From Anaerolineales bacterium (GTDB taxonomy: Bacteria; Chloroflexota; Anaerolineae; Anaerolineales; UBA6663): DNA of 10,473 nucleotides. The number at the start of each line of letters is the position of its first letter. Position 1 is the stretch's first letter. Shown here one piece after another: positions 2,093 to 10,473 of the stretch. A program made the position numbers and the translations under genes. The notes under the pieces were generated by a model. It worked only from the letters and a program-made list of their open reading frames with translations, had not been told where the DNA came from and ran no database searches. Where the stretch lies: NCBI GenBank assembly GCA_017999235.1, contig JAGOBN010000068.1, positions 1 to 10,473 of the forward strand. The letters run 5' to 3'.

Positions 2093-5000
2093 ATGCTCGC
2101 CGTCCGTTTGTTCGGCGCGCCGGCCGTGGAATACGCCGGCCGGCCGCTGGTCTTGCCCCGCCGCAAGAGCCGCGCCCTGGTCTTTTACCTGGCCGCCCAG
2201 CCGCACCCTGTCCGGCGTGAGACACTCTTGGCCTTGTTCTGGCCGGACGCCGAGCGCGCCGCCGGCCAGCAGACGCTGCGGACCACCCTGCACGGCCTGC
2301 GGCAAGCCTTGGGCGAGAGCCTGCGGGCCGAAGACGACACCCTGGCCCTGGACGCCGCGGTGGTGGTGGACGCGCGGCATTTCACCGCCAGCCTGAAAAC
2401 CGCCGGCGACGCCGCCGCCCTGAGCGCGGCCCTGGAGCTGTATCGGGGTGAATTCCTGGCCGGCTTCAGCCTGCCGGACGCGCCCGCTTTTGACGACTGG
2501 GCCGCCGCTGAGCGGGAACGCTACCGCCGGCTGGCGGTCCGCGCCTTGACCACCCTGAGTCACCACCAGGAAGCCGGCGCCGCTTACTCCGCCGCGCTGG
2601 AGGCGCTGGAACGCGCTCTGGCCCTGGATCCGCTGCAAGAAGACATTCAACGCGCCGCCCTGCGCCTGCACTATCTGGCCGGCGACCGGGCCGGCGCCAT
2701 CCGCCGCTACGAGCAGCTGCGCCGGCTGCTGGATGAAGAGATGGGCGTGCCGCCGATGGCCGAGACGCGCGCGCTCTACGACGCCATCATCACCGACACC
2801 CTGACACCCGCGCCAGCGGCCGCCGCGCCGGCCCCCCTCCCGCGGCCGCCCGAACCCGAGGCCGCGGCCCCGCCGTTCACCGGCCGGAGCCGGGAGCTGG
2901 AGACTCTGCGCGGACTGTTGCCAGGCCACCGCCTGGCCCTCCTGGAGGGCGAGGCCGGCATCGGCAAATCGCGGCTGGCGGAAGAGTTTCTGCGCTCCGC
3001 CGCCGGCCTGGCCCTGGTTGGCGCTGCGCGCGAACTAGAGCAGGCCTTGCCGTACCAGCCCATCCGCGAGGCGCTGCGCGGCCTGCTGGCCCGGCCGGAA
3101 TGGCCGGAGCGGCGCGCGGCCATTGCCGCCACCCTGCCCAGCCTGTGGTGCGATGAAGCGGCGCGCCTCCTGCCGGAGCTTAACTTTAGCCAGCCGGCCG
3201 GCCCCGCGGGGTATCTCGCCTCCGCCGCGCCGGATGAGCCTCGCCTCTGGGAAGGCGTTTTGCAATTCCTCACCGCGCTGGCCCACGCCGCCGGCCAACG
3301 CCTCCTGCTGTTTTTGGATGATCTGCAATGGGCGGATGCCTCGACGCTCGCGCTGGTGGGTTATCTCGTGCGGCGCGCCGAAGTGACCGGCGCCCCGCTG
3401 TTCATTTTAGGGGCCGCGCGCCCCTACACCTCCCGCTCGCCGCTGGCCGTTTTGCAGCAGGCGCTCACCCGCGAGGGCCGCCTCACCCGGCTGCCGCTGA
3501 GCCGGCTGACCAACGACGACGTGATCGGTTTGGCGCGGCATCTCAGCCCGGATTTCGCCCAGCCGCTGGCGTATTGGCTGCGCCAAAACTCCGAGGGCAA
3601 CCCGTACATCCTGGCTGAGCTGGTCCGCGCCCTGCGCGGCCAGCAGATCCTTAAACCCGGCGGCGCGCTGGACCTCGCCGCGCTGTCGGCCGAGCCGATG
3701 GTGCCGCAGACCATCTACAGCCTAATCCAATCCCGGCTGGCCCGCCTGTCCGACCCCGCCCGGCGCGTGCTGGACGCGGCCGTGGCCGCCGGCCGCGAGT
3801 TTGAGTTTGAGGTGGTGGCGCACGCGGCCGGCCTCTCGGAGGCTGCGGCCCTGGATGCGCTGGACGAGCTGCGCGCCGCGCACCTGGTCCTGGCCGGCGC
3901 GGACCCCAGCCGCTGGCGCTTTGACCACAGCCTGACCATGGAAGTGGCCTACCGTGAGGTGGGCGAGCCGCGCCACCGGCTCTTGCACCGGCGCATCGCC
4001 GAGGCGCTGGAGACGCTGCGCCGTGACCGGCTGGAGAGCTTGGCCGGCGTCTTGGCCTGGCATTTTGGCGAGGGCGGCGCGCCTGAGCGCGCCTCCCCCC
4101 ACGCCTGGCGCGCCGGCCAGCAGGCCGCGCAATTGGCCGCCTGGCGGGAAGCCACCGCCTTCTTTGAGCAGGCCCTGGCCGGCGCCGACAGCCGGATGCG
4201 GCTGGCGATCCTGACCGCGCTGGGCGTGGCGCGCTTCCACGCCGGCCAATCCGCCCTGGCCACCGAAGCGCTGCGGCTGGCGCTGGCGGAGTCCCGGCAC
4301 GAGCCTGCCCAAAGCGAAGCCATCCGCCGGGTGCTGGCCCAGACCCTGCTCAATCAGGGCCGCTTTGCGGACGTGATCGAGGAGGCCCAGGCGCTCCTGG
4401 CTGAGTCCGCCGCCGCGCCGGATTGGGCCATCACGGCCGAACTGTTGTGGGGCACGGCCTTGTCCCTGGAGGGCGCCGAACTCCCTGCCGCCGCCGAGCA
4501 CCTGCACCGCGCCGAAACGCTCCTGGAGGCCAGCCCGCAGCCGGACCGGGCGCGGCTGGCGCAGGCTAAGTTCGAACTCGGCAGTGTGGCCGCCCAGCAG
4601 GGCGACCTGCGGCGGGCGCTCCAGTTGTATGAAGAAACCCTGGCGGTGGCCCCCGCCGATGACCGCGCCGAGACCTGGCGCATCTTGGCCTCCAACAATC
4701 TGGCCTATCACCTGCATCTGCTGGGGGACCCGGCCGCCGGCGCGCATATCCAGCGCGGTCTGGCGCTGGCGCGCGAGGCCGGCAACTTAAATATGCTGCC
4801 GTTTCTGCTCTCCACGCAGGGCGAGATCGCTTTGGCCGCCGGCGACCTCGACGCGGCGGAGGCCGCCTTCACCGACGGCCTGGCGCTGGCGGAACAACTC
4901 AGCAACGCGGAACGCCAGGCCGGCCTGACCGCCAATCTCGGACGCCTGGCCGCCGTGCGCGGGGAGCCGGCCGCGGCCATCCACCGGCTGTCCACGGCGG

Positions 5001-5179
5001 TGGCCCGCGCCGACGCGCTGGGCACCCAGCATCTCTCCGCCCAGATCCGGCTGTGGCTGGTGCCGCTCCTGCCCCCGGCCGAGGCCCGCGTGACCTTAGC
5101 GGAAGCGCGCGCCCTGGCCGAGAACGGCGGCCGGCGGCGCCTGCTGGAAGAAATCCAACACCTCGAAAGCACGCTCTAA
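2093..5179 (+). CDS. AfsR/SARP-type regulator: winged helix, BTAD, ATPase and TPR repeats, 1028 aa
   Basis: A large transcriptional activator of the SARP/AfsR type. Numbering from the ATG at 2093, residues 1-90 form an OmpR-like winged helix (MLAVRLFGAPAVEYAG; RRKSRALVFYLA; LLALFWPDAER; TLHGLRQAL). Residues about 94-236 are the BTAD all-helical domain (VDARHF, LYRGEFLAGF, IRRYEQLRRLLDEEMGV). An Ala/Pro linker leads to a STAND/AAA_16-like ATPase with Walker A GEAGIGKS (286-293, Lys292) and Walker B LLLFLDDLQWAD (404-415, Asp409-Asp410). From about 626 to the end it is helical TPR-like repeats, probably the signal-input part. No LuxR-type helix-turn-helix is present at the C-terminus. A GTG at 2051 would add 14 low-complexity residues; the ATG is preferred because family members start with this MLxVRLFG strand. 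Neither start has a well-spaced Shine-Dalgarno (GGAAG at 2031-2035 is 15 bases from the GTG). SARP-like boxes lie just downstream, before yceI, so that gene is a likely target. Confidence 0.88.
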   Translation: MLAVRLFGAPAVEYAGRPLVLPRRKSRALVFYLAAQPHPVRRETLLALFWPDAERAAGQQTLRTTLHGLRQALGESLRAEDDTLALDAAVVVDARHFTASLKTAGDAAALSAALELYRGEFLAGFSLPDAPAFDDWAAAERERYRRLAVRALTTLSHHQEAGAAYSAALEALERALALDPLQEDIQRAALRLHYLAGDRAGAIRRYEQLRRLLDEEMGVPPMAETRALYDAIITDTLTPAPAAAAPAPLPRPPEPEAAAPPFTGRSRELETLRGLLPGHRLALLEGEAGIGKSRLAEEFLRSAAGLALVGAARELEQALPYQPIREALRGLLARPEWPERRAAIAATLPSLWCDEAARLLPELNFSQPAGPAGYLASAAPDEPRLWEGVLQFLTALAHAAGQRLLLFLDDLQWADASTLALVGYLVRRAEVTGAPLFILGAARPYTSRSPLAVLQQALTREGRLTRLPLSRLTNDDVIGLARHLSPDFAQPLAYWLRQNSEGNPYILAELVRALRGQQILKPGGALDLAALSAEPMVPQTIYSLIQSRLARLSDPARRVLDAAVAAGREFEFEVVAHAAGLSEAAALDALDELRAAHLVLAGADPSRWRFDHSLTMEVAYREVGEPRHRLLHRRIAEALETLRRDRLESLAGVLAWHFGEGGAPERASPHAWRAGQQAAQLAAWREATAFFEQALAGADSRMRLAILTALGVARFHAGQSALATEALRLALAESRHEPAQSEAIRRVLAQTLLNQGRFADVIEEAQALLAESAAAPDWAITAELLWGTALSLEGAELPAAAEHLHRAETLLEASPQPDRARLAQAKFELGSVAAQQGDLRRALQLYEETLAVAPADDRAETWRILASNNLAYHLHLLGDPAAGAHIQRGLALAREAGNLNMLPFLLSTQGEIALAAGDLDAAEAAFTDGLALAEQLSNAERQAGLTANLGRLAAVRGEPAAAIHRLSTAVARADALGTQHLSAQIRLWLVPLLPPAEARVTLAEARALAENGGRRRLLEEIQHLESTL

Positions 5180-5203: not shown

Positions 5204-5240
5204 CGCCTGAACCAGAGAGATGCGGTCCACCGTTCAGGCG
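5204..5240 (+). terminator. Inverted repeat after the regulator gene: possible terminator or operator
   Basis: CGCCTGAAC (5204-5212) and GTTCAGGCG (5232-5240) are perfect 9-base complements around a 19-base loop, 24 bases after the regulator stop, and are followed by only TTT. That is a weak intrinsic terminator. The right arm contains GTTCAGG, which resembles the GTTCACG repeat units that begin at the next base, so the arms could instead be additional regulator sites. Confidence 0.4.
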
Positions 5241-5284
5241 TTTACGCTCCTGTTCACGCCCCGGTCACGCTCGGCCTCTATCCT
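5241..5284 (+). promoter_or_regulatory. SARP-type promoter of the YceI gene: three direct heptamers plus -10
   Basis: Direct repeats TTTACGC (5241-5247), TTCACGC (5253-5259) and GTCACGC (5264-5270) start 12 and 11 bases apart. An 8-base gap leads to the -10 candidate TATCCT (5279-5284), and no normal -35 is present. Repeats that replace the -35, have about 11-base spacing and lie 8 bases from the -10 are the known hallmark of SARP-activated promoters. The same arrangement with identical spacings recurs at 9325-9368. The predicted leader is about 38 bases. A PhoP-type (GTTCACC-like) box is the alternative reading. Confidence 0.65.
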
Positions 5285-5314
5285 GTGGCCATCGAACGGA
5301 AACATTCACGCATC

Positions 5315-5319
5315 AGGAG
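5315..5319 (+). promoter_or_regulatory. Ribosome binding site deciding the YceI start
   Basis: AGGAG lies 9 bases before the ATG at 5329. It rules out the longer open frame that runs upstream to 5053 through the regulator gene. Confidence 0.75.
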
Positions 5320-5328
5320 CTTACGACC

Positions 5329-5877
5329 ATGGCTTGGAACATTGACACTTCCCACTCGCAAATCACCTTCACCGTGCGCCACATGATGATCTCGAACGTG
5401 CGCGGCCGCTTCGAGAACTTCAGCGGCACGGTCAACTTCAACGAGCAGGACCCGGCGCAGTCCACGGTGGACGTCCAGATCGACGCCGCCAGCATCAACA
5501 CCAAAGACGAGAAGCGCGACGGCCACCTGAAGTCCGGCGACTTCCTGGACGCCGAGAAGTTCCCGCAGCTGACCTTCAAGAGCAAGCGCGTCGAGAAGAC
5601 CAGCGACAACACCGGCCGGATCACGGGCGACCTGAGCATCCGCGGCATCACCAAAGAAGTGGTGCTGGCTGTCGAGTACAACGGCCAGGCCAAGAGCCCG
5701 TGGGGGACCACCAGCGCCGGCTTCACCGCCGCCACCAAGATCAGCCGCAAAGAGTGGGACCTGAACTGGAACGTGGCCCTCGAGACCGGCGGCCTGCTGG
5801 TCGGTGACGAAGTCAAGATTGAGATCGAGCTTGAGATCGTCAAGCAGCCCGAGGCCCAGGCGGCCGCGGCGGCGTAA
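5329..5877 (+). CDS. YceI-family (lipid-binding lipocalin-like) protein, 182 aa
   Basis: A single-domain YceI-family protein. The family forms a beta-barrel that binds isoprenoid or other amphiphilic molecules; many members are linked to stress or isoprenoid quinone handling. Diagnostic stretches are WNIDTSHSQITFTVRHMMIS near the N-terminus, VRGRFENFSGTVNF (about 22-35), IDAASINTKDEKRDGHLKS (about 47-65), GDFLDAEKFPQLTFKS (about 66-81), and GDLSIRGITKEV (about 96-107). Length fits the family. No signal peptide precedes the domain, so this member is predicted to be cytoplasmic, unlike E. coli YceI. The short Ala/Gln tail is not part of the fold. Codons favour AAC, AAG, ATC and ACC, and GCCGGC is scarcer than in the neighbours, consistent with high expression. 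Its promoter carries SARP-like boxes and its transcript ends at the hairpin at 5901-5932. Confidence 0.92.
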   Translation: MAWNIDTSHSQITFTVRHMMISNVRGRFENFSGTVNFNEQDPAQSTVDVQIDAASINTKDEKRDGHLKSGDFLDAEKFPQLTFKSKRVEKTSDNTGRITGDLSIRGITKEVVLAVEYNGQAKSPWGTTSAGFTAATKISRKEWDLNWNVALETGGLLVGDEVKIEIELEIVKQPEAQAAAAA

Positions 5878-5900
5878 GCGCTCTTTCGCCCACCGCCTTG

Positions 5901-5932
5901 AAAACGGGACGTCCCAACGGCGTCCCGTTTTT
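5901..5932 (+). terminator. Intrinsic terminator after the YceI gene
   Basis: AAAACGGGAC (5901-5910) pairs perfectly with GTCCCGTTTT (5922-5931) around an 11-base loop, and the right arm ends in five T residues (5928-5932). It lies 23 bases after the YceI stop. With A-runs on the left arm it may also work on the opposite strand, though no leftward gene needs it here. Confidence 0.85.
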
Positions 5933-5960
5933 GATTCCCGCCGCGGCCCTCAGGTATACT
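5931..5960 (+). promoter_or_regulatory. Promoter of the MFS gene, likely giving a leaderless transcript
   Basis: TTGATT (5931-5936) and TATACT (5955-5960) are 18 bases apart and are good -35 and -10 matches. Only 8 bases separate the -10 from the GTG at 5969, so transcription should begin at or within a base or two of the start codon. The -35 shares its first two T residues with the T-run of the upstream terminator. Confidence 0.65.
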
Positions 5961-5968
5961 CCGGCCCC

Positions 5969-7162
5969 GTGAAACGCTCCCCCCTGGTTGTTATCTTCAT
6001 CACCGTTTTGGTGGACCTGCTGGGCTACGGCATGCTCGTGCCGCTGCTGCCGTTCTATGTGCAGCGGCAGGCCGGCGGCGCGGAGGCGGCCGGCCTGCTG
6101 GGCTCGCTGTACTCGGTGATGCAGCTCTTCAGCGGGCCGGTGCTGGGCGCGCTCTCCGACCGGTATGGCCGGCGCCCGGTGCTGTTGGCGTGTCTGCTGG
6201 GGACGGTGCTGGCGTATCTGATCGTGGGGCTGGCGGATACGCTGGCCTGGCTCTTTGTGGCCATCGCCGTGGACGGCCTCACCGGCGGCAATCTCACCAC
6301 CGCTTACGCCTACATCGCGGACGTGACCGCGCCCGAGGCCCGCGCCCGGGGGATGAGCCTGGTGGGGGCGGCGTTTGGGCTGGGGCTGATGGTGGGGCCG
6401 GCCCTGGGCGGCCTGTTGAGCGGCTTCGGGCTGAGCGTGCCGGCGTTTACGGCGGCGGCGCTCGCGCTGGGCAACCTGCTCTTTGGCTGGTGGGCGCTGC
6501 CGGAATCGCTTCCGCCGGAACGCCGCACGCCGACGCTGGGCCGCCAGAGCCTCAACCCGGCCGGCCAATTGTGGGGGCTGTTCCAGCTCCCGGCCGTGCG
6601 CGGCCTGCTGGGCGCAATCTTCACGCTGAACCTCGCCTTCGCGGGCCTGCAGACCAACTTTCCGCTTTTCAGCCAGGCGCGCTTCCATTGGACCAGCACG
6701 CAAAACGGGCTGTTCTTTGCTTTTGTGGGGGTCTGCGCGGTGCTGATCCAGGGCGTGTTGTTTGGCTGGCTGCAGCCGCGCCTCGGCGAGCGCCGCCTGG
6801 CCCAGATTGGCCTGGCTTTGATGGCCGCCGGCCTGGCCGGCCTGGCCCTGGCTCCGGTGGATTGGCTGCTCTATCCGGTGGTGGCGCTGGTGGCGCTCGG
6901 CACCGGCACCAGCATCCCGTCCCTCACGGCGCTGGTCTCCGGGCGGATGAGCGCGGCCGAACAGGGCCGGCTGATGGGCGGCACGCAGACTTTGTTGAGT
7001 CTGGCCATGATCGGCGGCCCAACGCTGGCCGGCGTGGCCTTCGAGCGCGTGGCGGTCACGGCCCCGTATTGGCTGGGCGCCGGCCTGTCGTTCACGGCCC
7101 TGCTCCTGGCCGCCCGCGCCTTGCGCGCCCAGCCCGCGCCGGTCACACCCACGCCCGAATAG
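5969..7162 (+). CDS. TetA-like MFS drug/metabolite exporter, 397 aa
   Basis: A 12-helix major facilitator, most like the TetA/drug:proton antiporter branch. Helix 1 carries VLVDLLGYGMLVPLLPFYV (about 13-31), with the acidic residue typical of these antiporters. The loop after helix 2 has motif A, GALSDRYGRR (60-69). A glycine-rich antiporter-like motif, GAAFGLGLMVGPALGGLL, spans about 133-150, and a second half with six more hydrophobic segments follows, with EQGRLMGG-type inter-helix motifs near 330. The length is normal. The start is the GTG at 5969, placed directly after a strong promoter without room for a Shine-Dalgarno; the open frame upstream lies in the YceI gene and terminator. Its 3' end overlaps the convergent glycosyltransferase gene by 20 bases. 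The substrate cannot be read from sequence. Confidence 0.88.
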   Translation: MKRSPLVVIFITVLVDLLGYGMLVPLLPFYVQRQAGGAEAAGLLGSLYSVMQLFSGPVLGALSDRYGRRPVLLACLLGTVLAYLIVGLADTLAWLFVAIAVDGLTGGNLTTAYAYIADVTAPEARARGMSLVGAAFGLGLMVGPALGGLLSGFGLSVPAFTAAALALGNLLFGWWALPESLPPERRTPTLGRQSLNPAGQLWGLFQLPAVRGLLGAIFTLNLAFAGLQTNFPLFSQARFHWTSTQNGLFFAFVGVCAVLIQGVLFGWLQPRLGERRLAQIGLALMAAGLAGLALAPVDWLLYPVVALVALGTGTSIPSLTALVSGRMSAAEQGRLMGGTQTLLSLAMIGGPTLAGVAFERVAVTAPYWLGAGLSFTALLLAARALRAQPAPVTPTPE

Positions 7163-8411
7163 CCGCCACCGCCCGCGCCACCCCCGCCTCCGCCCGGATG
7201 GCAGCGCCCAAACGCTGGGCGCGCGCGCGCCCAGCCGGATCATCCACCGCCTGCCGCAAGGCCCGCGCCAGCGCCGGCGCCGTCAACGCCCGCTGCGGCA
7301 CCGGCGGCGGGCCAACGCCCAGGGCCGCCACCCGCTCACCCCAAAAAAACTGATCGATCGCCAGGGGCATGATCACCGTGGGTGTGCCGGCCCGCAAGCT
7401 GGCCGCCGTGGTGCCGGCGCCGCCGTGATGCGCCGCCGCCGCCACCCGCGGGAACAACCAGGTGTGCGGGACATCTGCAACCGGAAAGACGTGGTGCTCC
7501 GGGCCGGCCTCGTCCGCCAGCTCCGGGGGCACGGCTACCACCGCCCGCAGACCGGCCAGCTTCAGGGCGTCCAGCACCTTGGCCAGCATCGGCCGCGCGG
7601 CGCGCACGCCGGGGCTGCCAAAACTGAGCGAGACCGCCGGCCCGCTCTCCAAAAAACGTTCGAGCGCCGGCGGCGGACGCCCGGCGGCGGGCGCGTCGTA
7701 AAACCAATAGCCGGTCACGGTATGCCCGGCCGGCCAATCCGCCGGAGGCGGCAGGAGGTGCGGGCTCACGCCCACCACCACGCCGGTCTGAGCGCGCTGC
7801 AGCACGGCCAGCGGACTCGTCAGGCCGGCCGGCCGAAGGCCCACGGAGCGCCGCCAGGCGTTGATCACGCCGCGCCACGGCAGCCAGGTAGCCAGGGCCA
7901 CGGCCTGATGCGTGAGCCAGGCGTAGCGGCCGCCCAGCGAGAAACGGAACGGCAGCAACGCGCTCGGGAAGGCGCGGGTGGCGGTCACCGGTTGGAGCAG
8001 CGCCCACGCGCACCGCACGCCCTCCGCCTCGGCAATATGCGGCCCCCAAGTGGAAGCCAGACCCGCAATCACCAGCGCCGCGCCGCGCGCCGCCTCCCGC
8101 GCGCTGGCCAGCAGGCGCGTCAGCACCGGCCGCGCCGCACGCCAATAGCGCCCGGTCGCCTGGGCGTTGCGCCATACGCTGCCGTCGTAGGTGAGCGCGG
8201 ACTGTCCGCCGGCGCGCGTCATCCACTCGCTCAAGTTGCCGTCCAGACGTGCGAAGGGCAGGCCGGCGGCCGCCACCCAGGGCTGAAACTCGGCGTGCGT
8301 GGCCACGCGCACCGGCTGGCCGGCCGCCTGCAGCCCTTGCCCCAAGGCCAGGTACGGCCAGATATCGCCGCGCGTGCCGGTGGTGAGCAGGACCACGGGC
8401 TTGGCGCTCAT
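7143..8411 (-). CDS. GT1-family glycosyltransferase, sterol-glucosyltransferase-like, 422 aa
   Basis: A GT-B fold glycosyltransferase of family GT1 that would move a sugar from a nucleotide sugar to a small lipophilic acceptor. The N-terminal motif LLTTGTRGDIWPYLALGQGL (8-27) is the classic acceptor-domain start. The C-terminal donor-binding signature is HHGGAGTTAASLRAGTPT (328-345), followed by DQFFWGERV with Asp353-Gln354 contacting the sugar. HHGGAGTT together with DQxFWGxRV and LGVGPPPVP is closest to the sterol 3-beta-glucosyltransferase and macrolide/vancomycin transferase group. No membrane segment or signal peptide is seen. The start ATG (8411-8409) overlaps the methyltransferase stop as ATGA, so the gene is the second in a coupled operon. 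Sterol is a group label only; the actual acceptor is unknown. Confidence 0.9.
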   Translation of the reverse strand: MSAKPVVLLTTGTRGDIWPYLALGQGLQAAGQPVRVATHAEFQPWVAAAGLPFARLDGNLSEWMTRAGGQSALTYDGSVWRNAQATGRYWRAARPVLTRLLASAREAARGAALVIAGLASTWGPHIAEAEGVRCAWALLQPVTATRAFPSALLPFRFSLGGRYAWLTHQAVALATWLPWRGVINAWRRSVGLRPAGLTSPLAVLQRAQTGVVVGVSPHLLPPPADWPAGHTVTGYWFYDAPAAGRPPPALERFLESGPAVSLSFGSPGVRAARPMLAKVLDALKLAGLRAVVAVPPELADEAGPEHHVFPVADVPHTWLFPRVAAAAHHGGAGTTAASLRAGTPTVIMPLAIDQFFWGERVAALGVGPPPVPQRALTAPALARALRQAVDDPAGRARAQRLGAAIRAEAGVARAVAAIRAWV

Positions 8412-9277
8412 GCCGGTTTCTCAAAGATCAGAAAATGGTAGGCCACCCACCCCGCGCGCAAACATTGTTGCAGGGCCAGGCTGCCCACCATGCTGGGGAT
8501 GAAGGCGTGGCCAGACGGCAGCCGCCAGCCGAGCGCCAGCGCCAGCTCGGCCAATGCGTCCGGCCAGGCCCGCAGGCGGATCAAGGCGGTGAGATCGCGC
8601 CCGGAGATTAAGCGCAGACCGTGCGCCTCCGCGCCGGCCGTCACCGCATCCACGGTCTGCAAATTGGGGATCTGCCAGCCGGCCTGATACGCCGCCACCC
8701 AGCGCCGGGCGCGGGCCGCCAGCGCCGCATCCGGCCGCGCCCGGAAATCGTCACACAGGATCAGCCGGCCGCCGGGCCGCAGCAGGCGCGCCGCCGTGGC
8801 GAAATACTGGTCAGGGTCCGCCGCGTGGCCGAAGGCCTCCACCGAATACACCAGGTCCGCGCCGGCCGCCGCCGGCGCCCAATGAAAATCCGCTTCGACA
8901 AAACCAACCGGGTGCGGCAACTGCAGGCGTTGGGCGCGGTGTGCGGCCAGCCGAGCCTGCGCCGGGCTGAGCGTGCAGCCCAGGGCCAGCGCCGGCCGCG
9001 CCACGCGCGTCAAGAGATAGAACAGACTGCCGCCCACCCCGCAGCCCAGATCAATCAGCCGCACCGGGGCCGGCGCATCGCGCTGCACCACCTCGCGCAG
9101 CGCCTGCCAGAGCAGTTCATTGGAATAATTGAGGGCCGCGCGGTGCGTGGTAATGCCCTCCGCCCACAGCGCGCGGTGGATGGTGTCGGTGGGCGGCTGG
9201 CCGAAGGCCAGGAACAGGCGCGTGTTTTGCTCGTAGTAGCGGCGAATGGCGGCCGTGACGGCCGGCGGTTGGGTCAT
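8408..9277 (-). CDS. Class I SAM-dependent methyltransferase, 289 aa
   Basis: A Rossmann-fold methyltransferase of the Methyltransf_11/25, UbiE and sterol-methyltransferase-like type. Motif I is LIDLGCGVGG (74-83), an acidic motif follows at GFVEADF (125-131), and LLRPGGRLILCDDF (165-178) is the motif III/strand 5 region. The N-terminal helical cap, with YYEQNTRLFLAFG (14-26) and IHRALW (33-38), resembles small-molecule C- or O-methyltransferases rather than those acting on RNA or protein. AGGAG at 9288-9284 lies 6 bases before the ATG and supports the start. It is first in an operon with the glycosyltransferase, so both probably act on one compound. The substrate is unknown. Confidence 0.88.
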   Translation of the reverse strand: MTQPPAVTAAIRRYYEQNTRLFLAFGQPPTDTIHRALWAEGITTHRAALNYSNELLWQALREVVQRDAPAPVRLIDLGCGVGGSLFYLLTRVARPALALGCTLSPAQARLAAHRAQRLQLPHPVGFVEADFHWAPAAAGADLVYSVEAFGHAADPDQYFATAARLLRPGGRLILCDDFRARPDAALAARARRWVAAYQAGWQIPNLQTVDAVTAGAEAHGLRLISGRDLTALIRLRAWPDALAELALALGWRLPSGHAFIPSMVGSLALQQCLRAGWVAYHFLIFEKPA

Positions 9278-9296
9278 GGATGGCTCCTGGCGCCGG

Positions 9297-9302
9297 AGTT
9301 TA
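9297..9302 (-). promoter_or_regulatory. Candidate -10 of the methyltransferase/glycosyltransferase operon
   Basis: TAAACT on the minus strand lies 19 bases before the ATG, leaving a leader of about 13 bases that still contains the AGGAG. There is no clear -35 at 17-18 bases. The upstream side runs into the direct repeats at 9325-9354, so the regulator bound there could affect both directions. Confidence 0.35.
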
Positions 9303-9324
9303 CCTTACCCTTCGGCTGGCCGTG

Positions 9325-9368
9325 TTTACGACCCTGTTTACGCCCGCGTGACGCCGGGGCGGTACGGT
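9325..9368 (+). promoter_or_regulatory. SARP-type promoter of the DUF6069-like gene: second copy of the heptamer array
   Basis: TTTACGA (9325-9331), TTTACGC (9337-9343) and GTGACGC (9348-9354) start 12 and 11 bases apart. Eight bases later comes TACGGT (9363-9368). All spacings equal those at 5241-5284, and 24 of 30 bases over the repeat block are identical to that copy. There is no normal -35. The predicted leader is about 32 bases. Confidence 0.65.
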
Positions 9369-9406: not shown

Positions 9407-9838
9407 ATGGCCGCTGCCATTCAATCACCCGCTCCTCGTGTCGCCGCCCGTAAGCTGCTGTGGGCCGGCCCGCTCGCCGGCGCCCTGGCCGCGCTTGCCA
9501 ACCTGGTGGTGCTGTTCGCGGGTCAGGCCCTGGTCGGCCAGATCCGCCTGCCCCTGCCGCCGGCGACCGAGCCGCAAGCCCTGCCGTGGGTGGCCGTGGC
9601 CGCCGCCAGTTTTATCCCGGCGCTCGCGGCCGCCGCCTTGCTGGCCGGCCTGGGCCGCTTTGCGCCGCGCCCGGTGTTCGTTTTTCAGGTGATCGCCGCC
9701 CTCTTCCTGCTGCTCTCCCTGGCGGGGCCTGCCACCTTGCCCATCAGCTTCGCCTTTCAGGCCGTGCTCACCCTCACGCACGTGGTGGCCGGGGCCGTCA
9801 CCGTCGGGGTACTGACCACCTTCGCCGTTAAACCATAA
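9407..9838 (+). CDS. Four-helix membrane protein, DUF6069-like, 143 aa
   Basis: A small integral membrane protein with four predicted helices at about 18-43, 60-84, 89-107 and 115-139. The pattern matches the DUF6069 family as I remember it: LLWAGPLAGALAALANLVV in helix 1, LPWVAVAAASFIPALAAA in helix 2, FQVIAALFLLLSLAGP in helix 3, and a conserved-looking His125 in LTLTHVVAGAV in helix 4. The function of that family is unknown. There is no cleavable signal. The start is fixed by AAGGA. It stands alone, divergent from the methyltransferase gene and followed by an inverted repeat. Its promoter carries the same direct-repeat array as yceI, so the two are likely to be co-regulated. Family assignment is by pattern only. 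Confidence 0.78.
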   Translation: MAAAIQSPAPRVAARKLLWAGPLAGALAALANLVVLFAGQALVGQIRLPLPPATEPQALPWVAVAAASFIPALAAAALLAGLGRFAPRPVFVFQVIAALFLLLSLAGPATLPISFAFQAVLTLTHVVAGAVTVGVLTTFAVKP

Positions 9839-9903: not shown

Positions 9904-10473
9904 ATGATCTCACCTACCTTACCCGCCGAACTGCAACTCGGCTACGTCCATCTCAATGTCTCCAACCTGGAGCGCGCGCTGAAGTTTTATGAGCACGCCC
10001 TGGGGTTCCGCCTGCACCGCCGGGACGGCGGCGCCACCGCCTATCTAGGCGCGGGCGGCCCCGATCTGGTGGTGCTCACCGAACAGCCCGGCGCCCTGCG
10101 CCCGCGCCGCACCACCGGCCTGTACCACTTCGCCATCCTGACTCCCTCGCGGCCGGCGCTGGCCCATTCCATTCAGCACATCGCGGAGACGCGCACCCCC
10201 GTGCAGGGCGCGGCCGACCATCTGGTGAGCGAAGCTTTATACCTGCCGGACGTGGACGGCAACGGCATCGAAATTTACCGCGACCGGCCGCGCGCCGAGT
10301 GGCGGGACGCGGCCGGCAACTTCCGCATGGATACCCTGCCGCTGGACCTGGACGGTTTGATGCGTGAGCTCCCCGCCGCGGCCTGGACCGGCCTGGCGCC
10401 GGCCCCGGTGCTCGGCCACATGCACCTGCACGTGCGGGATATCCCCGAAGCGCGCGCCTTTTACGTGGATGTG
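9904..10473 (+). CDS. Two-domain glyoxalase/CatE-like ring-cleavage dioxygenase family protein (3' end outside window)
   Basis: A vicinal-oxygen-chelate protein, most like the CatE/catechol-2,3-dioxygenase-like group. The 190 codons present read through to the window edge without a stop. The first module starts LGYVHLNVSNLERALKFYE (12-30) with metal-ligand candidate His16. It has LYHFAIL (73-79) with His75, and ends in the family signature DGNGIEIYRDRP (118-129) with Glu123. A linker with DTLPLDLDGLM (143-153) leads to a second module, MHLHVRDIPEARAFYVDV (173-190), whose His174 aligns with His16. The order and the DxLPLDL linker fit two-domain CatE-like proteins. Whether it cleaves a catechol or has another role in this superfamily cannot be told. 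The ATG is supported by TACACT 7 bases upstream and by the family N-terminus; there is no Shine-Dalgarno. Confidence 0.88.
   Translation, partial: MISPTLPAELQLGYVHLNVSNLERALKFYEHALGFRLHRRDGGATAYLGAGGPDLVVLTEQPGALRPRRTTGLYHFAILTPSRPALAHSIQHIAETRTPVQGAADHLVSEALYLPDVDGNGIEIYRDRPRAEWRDAAGNFRMDTLPLDLDGLMRELPAAAWTGLAPAPVLGHMHLHVRDIPEARAFYVDV

Follow-up and report, generated by a model that had tools for sequence, protein, structure and literature searches.

An AfsR-like regulator and its probable three-repeat promoters before yceI and a DUF6069 gene in Chloroflexota

Introduction

AfsR-like activators are known mainly from antibiotic-making Streptomyces. The 10,473-nucleotide (nt) stretch of contig JAGOBN010000068.1 analysed here, referred to as the window at its full length, carries two promoter-like blocks, one before yceI and one before a DUF6069 gene, each composed of three direct repeats ahead of a −10 box, together with a gene for a SARP-type regulator. 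This arrangement raises the question of whether such a regulator, in an organism of another phylum, acts on both promoters. Our analysis makes it very probable that the two blocks are the operator-promoters of an AfsR-like 'large' SARP encoded at 2093–5179, through which yceI and the DUF6069 gene would be switched on. The nearest relatives of yceI and of the regulator were found in Chloroflexota, which identifies this phylum, and not Actinobacteria, as the source of the window and bears out the first-pass annotation of this DNA, which had placed the regulon probably outside Actinobacteria.

Two promoters with the same anatomy

Upstream of yceI (5329–5877, + strand; Pfam YceI, E 5.1e-56), repeat copy 1 (GTTTACGC) lies at 5240–5247, copy 2 (GTTCACGC) at 5252–5259, where it covers the usual place of a −35 element, and copy 3 (GGTCACGC) at 5263–5270, 8 nt before the −10 box TATCCT (5279–5284); relatives have TANNNT at exactly the same offset. 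The block before the gene for a small DUF6069 membrane protein (9407–9838, +; Pfam DUF6069, E 1.1e-16) consists of copy 1 (GTTTACGA) at 9324–9331, copy 2 (GTTTACGC) at 9336–9343, copy 3 (CGTGACGC), the weakest, at 9347–9354, and the −10 box TACGGT at 9363–9368. All these elements are on the + strand. The yceI site starts 61 nt past the stop codon of the regulator gene, and the second site occupies the gap separating the methyltransferase gene from the divergently oriented DUF6069 gene, whose start codon follows 38 nt later. At both places, we confirmed the three direct repeats with starts 12 and then 11 nt apart and the gap of exactly 8 nt from copy 3 to the −10 box; the repeat unit, which had been annotated as a heptamer, is more aptly taken as the octamer GTTnACGC, which begins one base earlier (5240 and 9324).

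The further description of the two blocks also held. Their repeat blocks are identical at 24 of 30 bases, and the flanks diverge, with 11 of 50 bases identical in the upstream 50 nt and 15 of 40 in the downstream 40 nt; because the flanks differ, we rejected a recent duplication of a long stretch as the source of the shared promoter. Neither promoter has a sigma-70 −35 element, in that the hexamers 15–19 nt upstream of the −10 box match TTGACA at no more than two of six positions, and a sigma-70 promoter with a −35 was rejected at both sites on this ground.

Within the window, an exact pattern allowing up to three mismatches recovered only these two sites and had no match in 200 shuffles, a count that is not independent, since the pattern was derived from the two sites themselves. 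We also used an independent weight model, built without the window from 24 distinct sites that belong to other genomes; it ranked the yceI site first (42.0) and the DUF6069 site second (30.7). Among hits that overlap neither site, the highest score was 1.9 for the + strand and −4.5 for the − strand, and the top score among 200 simulated windows was 10.6. Chance origin of the sites was rejected on the shuffles, the simulated windows and the non-overlapping scores.

Conservation and co-occurrence with the regulator

Relatives of yceI drawn from a genome collection gave 43 loci, among which tandem GTTYACGC stood upstream in L002 and L004–L009. A blind two-repeat pattern run over 400 Chloroflexota genomes returned 20 rows (19 distinct sites in 18 genomes) versus 8 rows in the reversed control, and 10 of the 19 distinct sites lay directly before yceI. 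All 10 belonged to the 24 genomes of the 400 that carry a regulator relative at E<=1e-100, with identities of 36–62%. The comparison of orthologous yceI promoters proposed with the first-pass annotation came out clearly: the three-repeat promoter stands before yceI in every one of these 24 genomes. Scoring of yceI upstream regions found 23 of them (scores 19–27), and the exact pattern found that of G103, at 243 nt from yceI; G103 scored 14.5 in the 150-nt upstream scan and was left out of the sets of 30 sites and regions used below. The yceI site was also present in five further regulator-bearing genomes (G002, G004, G005, G007 and G009), which had been found via yceI or the regulator.

Altogether, site scores of 19–27 were obtained in 28 of 29 regulator-bearing genomes versus at most 17 in controls, and the site was absent from all 52 upstream regions of control yceI genes (50 distinct). 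Several control regions have a TTGACA −35 instead of repeats, and two controls without the site, G001 (YceI 70%) and G003 (66%), have a YceI no less similar than that of the positives. For the control loci L010–L043 (n = 34), which come from beyond the phylum or from its margin, the regulator was searched for only in G010 and G009-type ones; four genomes without the regulator (G079, G021, G053 and G087, of 26 looked at) had no YceI match and hence provided no controls.

The details of the architecture are likewise conserved. With the spacing left free at 8–15 nt and the −10 box unused, TANNNT occurred exactly 8 nt past copy 3 in 26 of 30 regions, and sequences at the sites of other genomes match TTGACA at no more than three of six positions, meaning that their −35 is poor or missing. 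Repeat spacing over the 30 sites was 12/12 in 17, 12/11 in 7 and 11/12 in 6; the annotated 11-base period accordingly stands as one of two steps, 11 or 12, and fails as a general rule. A drifted yceI site was observed at L144 in genome G150, with copies of GTACAC type that keep the 11/12 spacing and the 8-nt gap to TATAGT; the adjacent regulator has 36% identity, and this operator and its regulator possibly changed together.

Searching whole genomes for such promoters, as had been suggested, placed nearly all of them at yceI. Patterns with exact spacing and a −10 box gave 18 rows (12/12) and 4 rows (11/12) over the 29 regulator-bearing genomes and no reversed-control rows; 16 of the 18 and all four of the 11/12 rows, hence 20 of 22, were at yceI, and the other two were in G317. 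The 12/11 pattern was found in 2 of 301 genomes (those in the order of G326), both times at yceI, and one of the two is G450, the closest relative seen (YceI 84%; MFS gene behind yceI 80%). Judging from these scans, the regulon would comprise very few promoters, often just one in a genome, and be centred on yceI. Regulator gene and yceI are neighbours in 15 of 30 loci; because the regulator gene lies apart from yceI in the other 15, the 'intra-locus' character claimed for the regulon is accidental.

The two extra three-repeat promoters of G317 (L177 and L179) precede genes that by eye are NADPH-FMN-reductase-like and glyoxalase/ring-cleavage (dioxygenase)-like, and the second of them echoes the glyoxalase gene of the window.

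The regulator and its relation to known SARPs

The regulator gene (2093–5179, +) encodes 1028 amino acids from the ATG at 2093, or 1042 if the upstream GTG at 2051 is used. Its product has BTAD, AAA_16 and TPR domain matches: an N-terminal OmpR-type winged helix followed by BTAD, as in SARPs of the AfsR type, and a C-terminal NOD/AAA plus TPR part, as in the 'large' SARPs of the AfsR subtype. This SARP domain fold, encoded by a gene ending 61 nt before the site, agrees with the annotated SARP-type regulator directly upstream of the first copy. Furthermore, the fold matches AfsR bound at afsS, with 22% identity over aligned residues, and the sequence match of the AfsR winged helix alone is weak. 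The NCBIfam AfsR model gave 36.8 bits against a cut-off of 1430; the protein is therefore not AfsR itself.

According to PMC10936776, SARP promoters have their 3′ repeat 8 base pairs (bp) from the −10 box; the repeat distance cited for them is 11 or 22 bp. The present sites show the 8-bp gap and the poor or missing −35, and we filed them as a variant of the SARP box because their repeat spacing is not 11 or 22 bp. With the AfsR/afs box of the afsS promoter of Streptomyces coelicolor (PMC10936776) they share the 8-nt rule and the regulator fold, whereas three copies stand here and two there, the spacings are 12/12, 12/11 and 11/12, and the repeat is GTTnACGC. This system also differs from AfsR in its phylum and in its targets, yceI and DUF6069, and the part of the window studied contains no antibiotic genes. 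The SARP-LAL regulators of polyene clusters, such as PimR, likewise combine a SARP domain with a large ATP-binding C-terminal part and have heptameric direct repeats, but belong to Streptomyces antibiotic clusters, unlike the regulator described here (PMC5930380 and PMC3367932). EmbR of Mycobacterium tuberculosis (2fez) has an FHA domain where the window regulator has NOD/TPR (PMC10936776).

Two side observations concern relatives of the regulator. In G338, a separate small SARP-like ORF (contig C21:229-993; a 354-residue open frame, 38% to the N-terminus of the window regulator) lies some 2.3 kb away from the site at yceI. In G254 (contig C161:71183-74292), a relative occurs in two open pieces (query 4–413 and 455–1041), perhaps through a frameshift or an assembly error.

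DUF6069 as a second target

Control of both yceI and the DUF6069-like gene, as originally proposed, stands firmly for yceI (24 of 24 genomes versus 0 of 52 controls), and the evidence for DUF6069 is thinner, consisting of a site in G004 and the gene order of G326, with 10 of 12 loci pointing the other way. The G004 DUF6069 gene (Pfam 33.5 bits, cut-off 27.2) is not beside yceI; a site of its own (L117:1403-1447) precedes the start codon by 35 nt and scores 21.5 in a model built without G004, compared with 17.6 reached in 300 simulations of the locus. The arrangement in G326 runs from the regulator through the three-repeat site and yceI to DUF6069 and glyoxalase, equal to that of the window minus the transporter, glycosyltransferase and methyltransferase genes. 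Because DUF6069 and glyoxalase follow directly behind yceI in G326, the second site of the window may have restored co-control after intervening genes came between yceI and DUF6069, if the change went in that direction. Our comparison thus grades the DUF6069 site as most likely real, on thinner support than the yceI site.

Proposed mechanism and alternatives

From promoter anatomy, conservation, co-occurrence and fold, all read from sequence, we infer binding, activation, a third protomer, a signal and glyoxalase co-transcription as follows. The regulator would receive a signal through its NOD/TPR part and would bind the three repeats as adjacent protomers, each copy taking one. With the −10 box taken as −12 to −7, copies 3 and 2 would correspond, within about a base, to the two protomers of AfsR on the afs box (−40 to −19), and copy 1 would add a third protomer near −51 as an extra upstream copy. 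The bound array would then replace the missing −35 by docking sigma region 4 and core RNA polymerase (sigma adaptation), turning on yceI and, in this organism, also the DUF6069 and probably the glyoxalase genes.

Several observations weigh against this assignment. The spacing differs from the SARP value of 11 or 22 bp, and AfsR R92, which contacts a T, corresponds to G68 in the window regulator (fixed offset of 24, by eye), so that bases are not read in the same way as by AfsR. Blind-scan sites in G105, G291, G358, G334, G155 and G279 resemble chance matches, and the one in G079, a genome with a 36% regulator match, is equivocal; a looser two-repeat pattern, run on 10 genomes, gave as many control rows as real ones (10 against 8) and is hence not specific by itself. 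Most controls have a less similar YceI, such that the co-occurrence may partly reflect shared ancestry, and the co-occurrence counts leave out G450, whose yceI has the site. Moreover, none of the 12 regulator loci scanned, some with short upstream sequence, showed a site at the gene of the regulator itself, and autoregulation of the SARP gene was rejected on this result. DUF6069 loci without a site include those of five regulator-bearing genomes, G127 and four of Roseiflexaceae type.

These last loci bear on the possibility that the yceI site is a SARP target and the DUF6069 copy a chance likeness or a decayed, functionless promoter, which we regard as unlikely. Its weaker score, copy 3 (CGTGACGC) and poor −10 box (TACGGT) favour that explanation, as do the 10 of 12 DUF6069 loci of other genomes scanned without a site (only G326 and G004 show one; one of the ten, in G002, is cut by a contig end) and the lack of a DUF6069 match in the close relative G450. 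However, no simulated window came near its score, the site faces the right way at a short distance from the start codon, and an independent site precedes DUF6069 in G004, with DUF6069 behind the yceI promoter in G326. We hold it very unlikely that a PhoB/PhoP- or other OmpR-family response regulator, rather than the neighbouring SARP, binds the repeats. Direct repeats of roughly 11 bp, placed ahead of a −10 box that lacks a −35, are bound by OmpR-class winged helices as well, and the PHO boxes of Streptomyces have the sequence GTTCACC; a phosphate regulator, however, would be expected to have many targets, whereas strict patterns give one site per genome, nearly always at yceI, and the presence of the site tracks the SARP ortholog (response regulators and phosphate genes were not searched for).

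Highly improbable, in our judgement, is an operator for a CarH/LitR-type photoreceptor (MerR plus B12), a repressor. PMC9304148 describes CarH as binding tandem 11-bp repeats, nnnnTnnACAn, over the promoter, in operators with three to four repeats over the −35. GTTnACGC resembles TnnACA, and the layout is alike, with at least three tandem repeats about one helical turn apart, a TnnAC core and a place over the −35 position; in addition, 28 of the 29 regulator-bearing genomes have B12-binding_2 domains (MetH and others included), and five of six such ORFs inspected by eye look MerR-B12-like (L188, L189, L192, L199 and L201). Nevertheless, the MerR-type repressor has a strict 11-bp period with ACA and keeps a −35 inside a repeat (PMC9304148), whereas here 12-nt steps are common, the consensus is ACGC and there is no −35. 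Ten loci of B12-binding_2 genes lack such a site (best score 8.5), G002 has the site with no B12-binding_2 domain found in its 2.6-Mb genome, which may be incomplete, and 15 of 30 loci have a SARP as the neighbouring regulator. On spacing, the ACGC core, the missing −35 and the B12 loci without a site, we rejected a CarH operator as first choice.

A broader reading has about an even chance of being right: SARP-type sigma adaptation would not be an actinobacterial speciality, and a dedicated Chloroflexota branch of large SARPs would use it for yceI, a housekeeping or stress function, through a three-protomer array with a 12-nt step. A regulon of one or two promoters would have been kept despite wide divergence (36–62% regulator identity), with new targets (DUF6069, glyoxalase and the FMN-reductase gene of G317) joining by gaining a three-repeat promoter.

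As far as sequence comparison can tell, a member of the SARP family thus probably occurs outside Actinobacteria together with a variant of the SARP-type promoter. The open-access literature (subscription papers not covered) yielded no report of a SARP in Chloroflexota or of SARP control of yceI. Regulators of the BTAD/AAA/TPR kind, without known targets, are numerous in genomes of this phylum (as many as 29 matches in one genome); here, strong comparative evidence allows regulator, operator and targets to be paired into a testable code, GTTnACGC three times, 8 nt and TANNNT, and the pairing offers a route to the operators of the others. The sites also allow testing whether the activation mode of AfsR is older or wider than Actinobacteria, and they give a first lead on how Chloroflexota control yceI, a gene that is widespread and whose role is unclear.

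Gene neighbourhood of the two sites

A terminator-like hairpin lies 3′ of yceI (5916–5929, +), a weak signal in that the region holds 6 such sites versus 2.9 expected in shuffles; its position behind yceI suggests that yceI is transcribed alone. Past the hairpin, a sigma-70-like promoter (TTGATT-18-TATACT, 5931–5960, +) precedes an MFS transporter gene (about 5969–7162, +), which, having this promoter of its own, is probably not co-transcribed with yceI. Between the two sites, a glycosyltransferase gene of GT28/macrolide type (7143–8411, −; 77.7 bits to a rifamycin-glycosyltransferase model, far from its cut-off of 800) and a methyltransferase gene (8408–9277, −) form one probable operon (7143–9277, −), which has no counterpart between yceI and DUF6069 in G326. 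Behind DUF6069, a gene of the glyoxalase/dioxygenase superfamily (9904–10473, +; Pfam Glyoxalase, E 8.4e-14) runs off the window and is perhaps co-transcribed with DUF6069.

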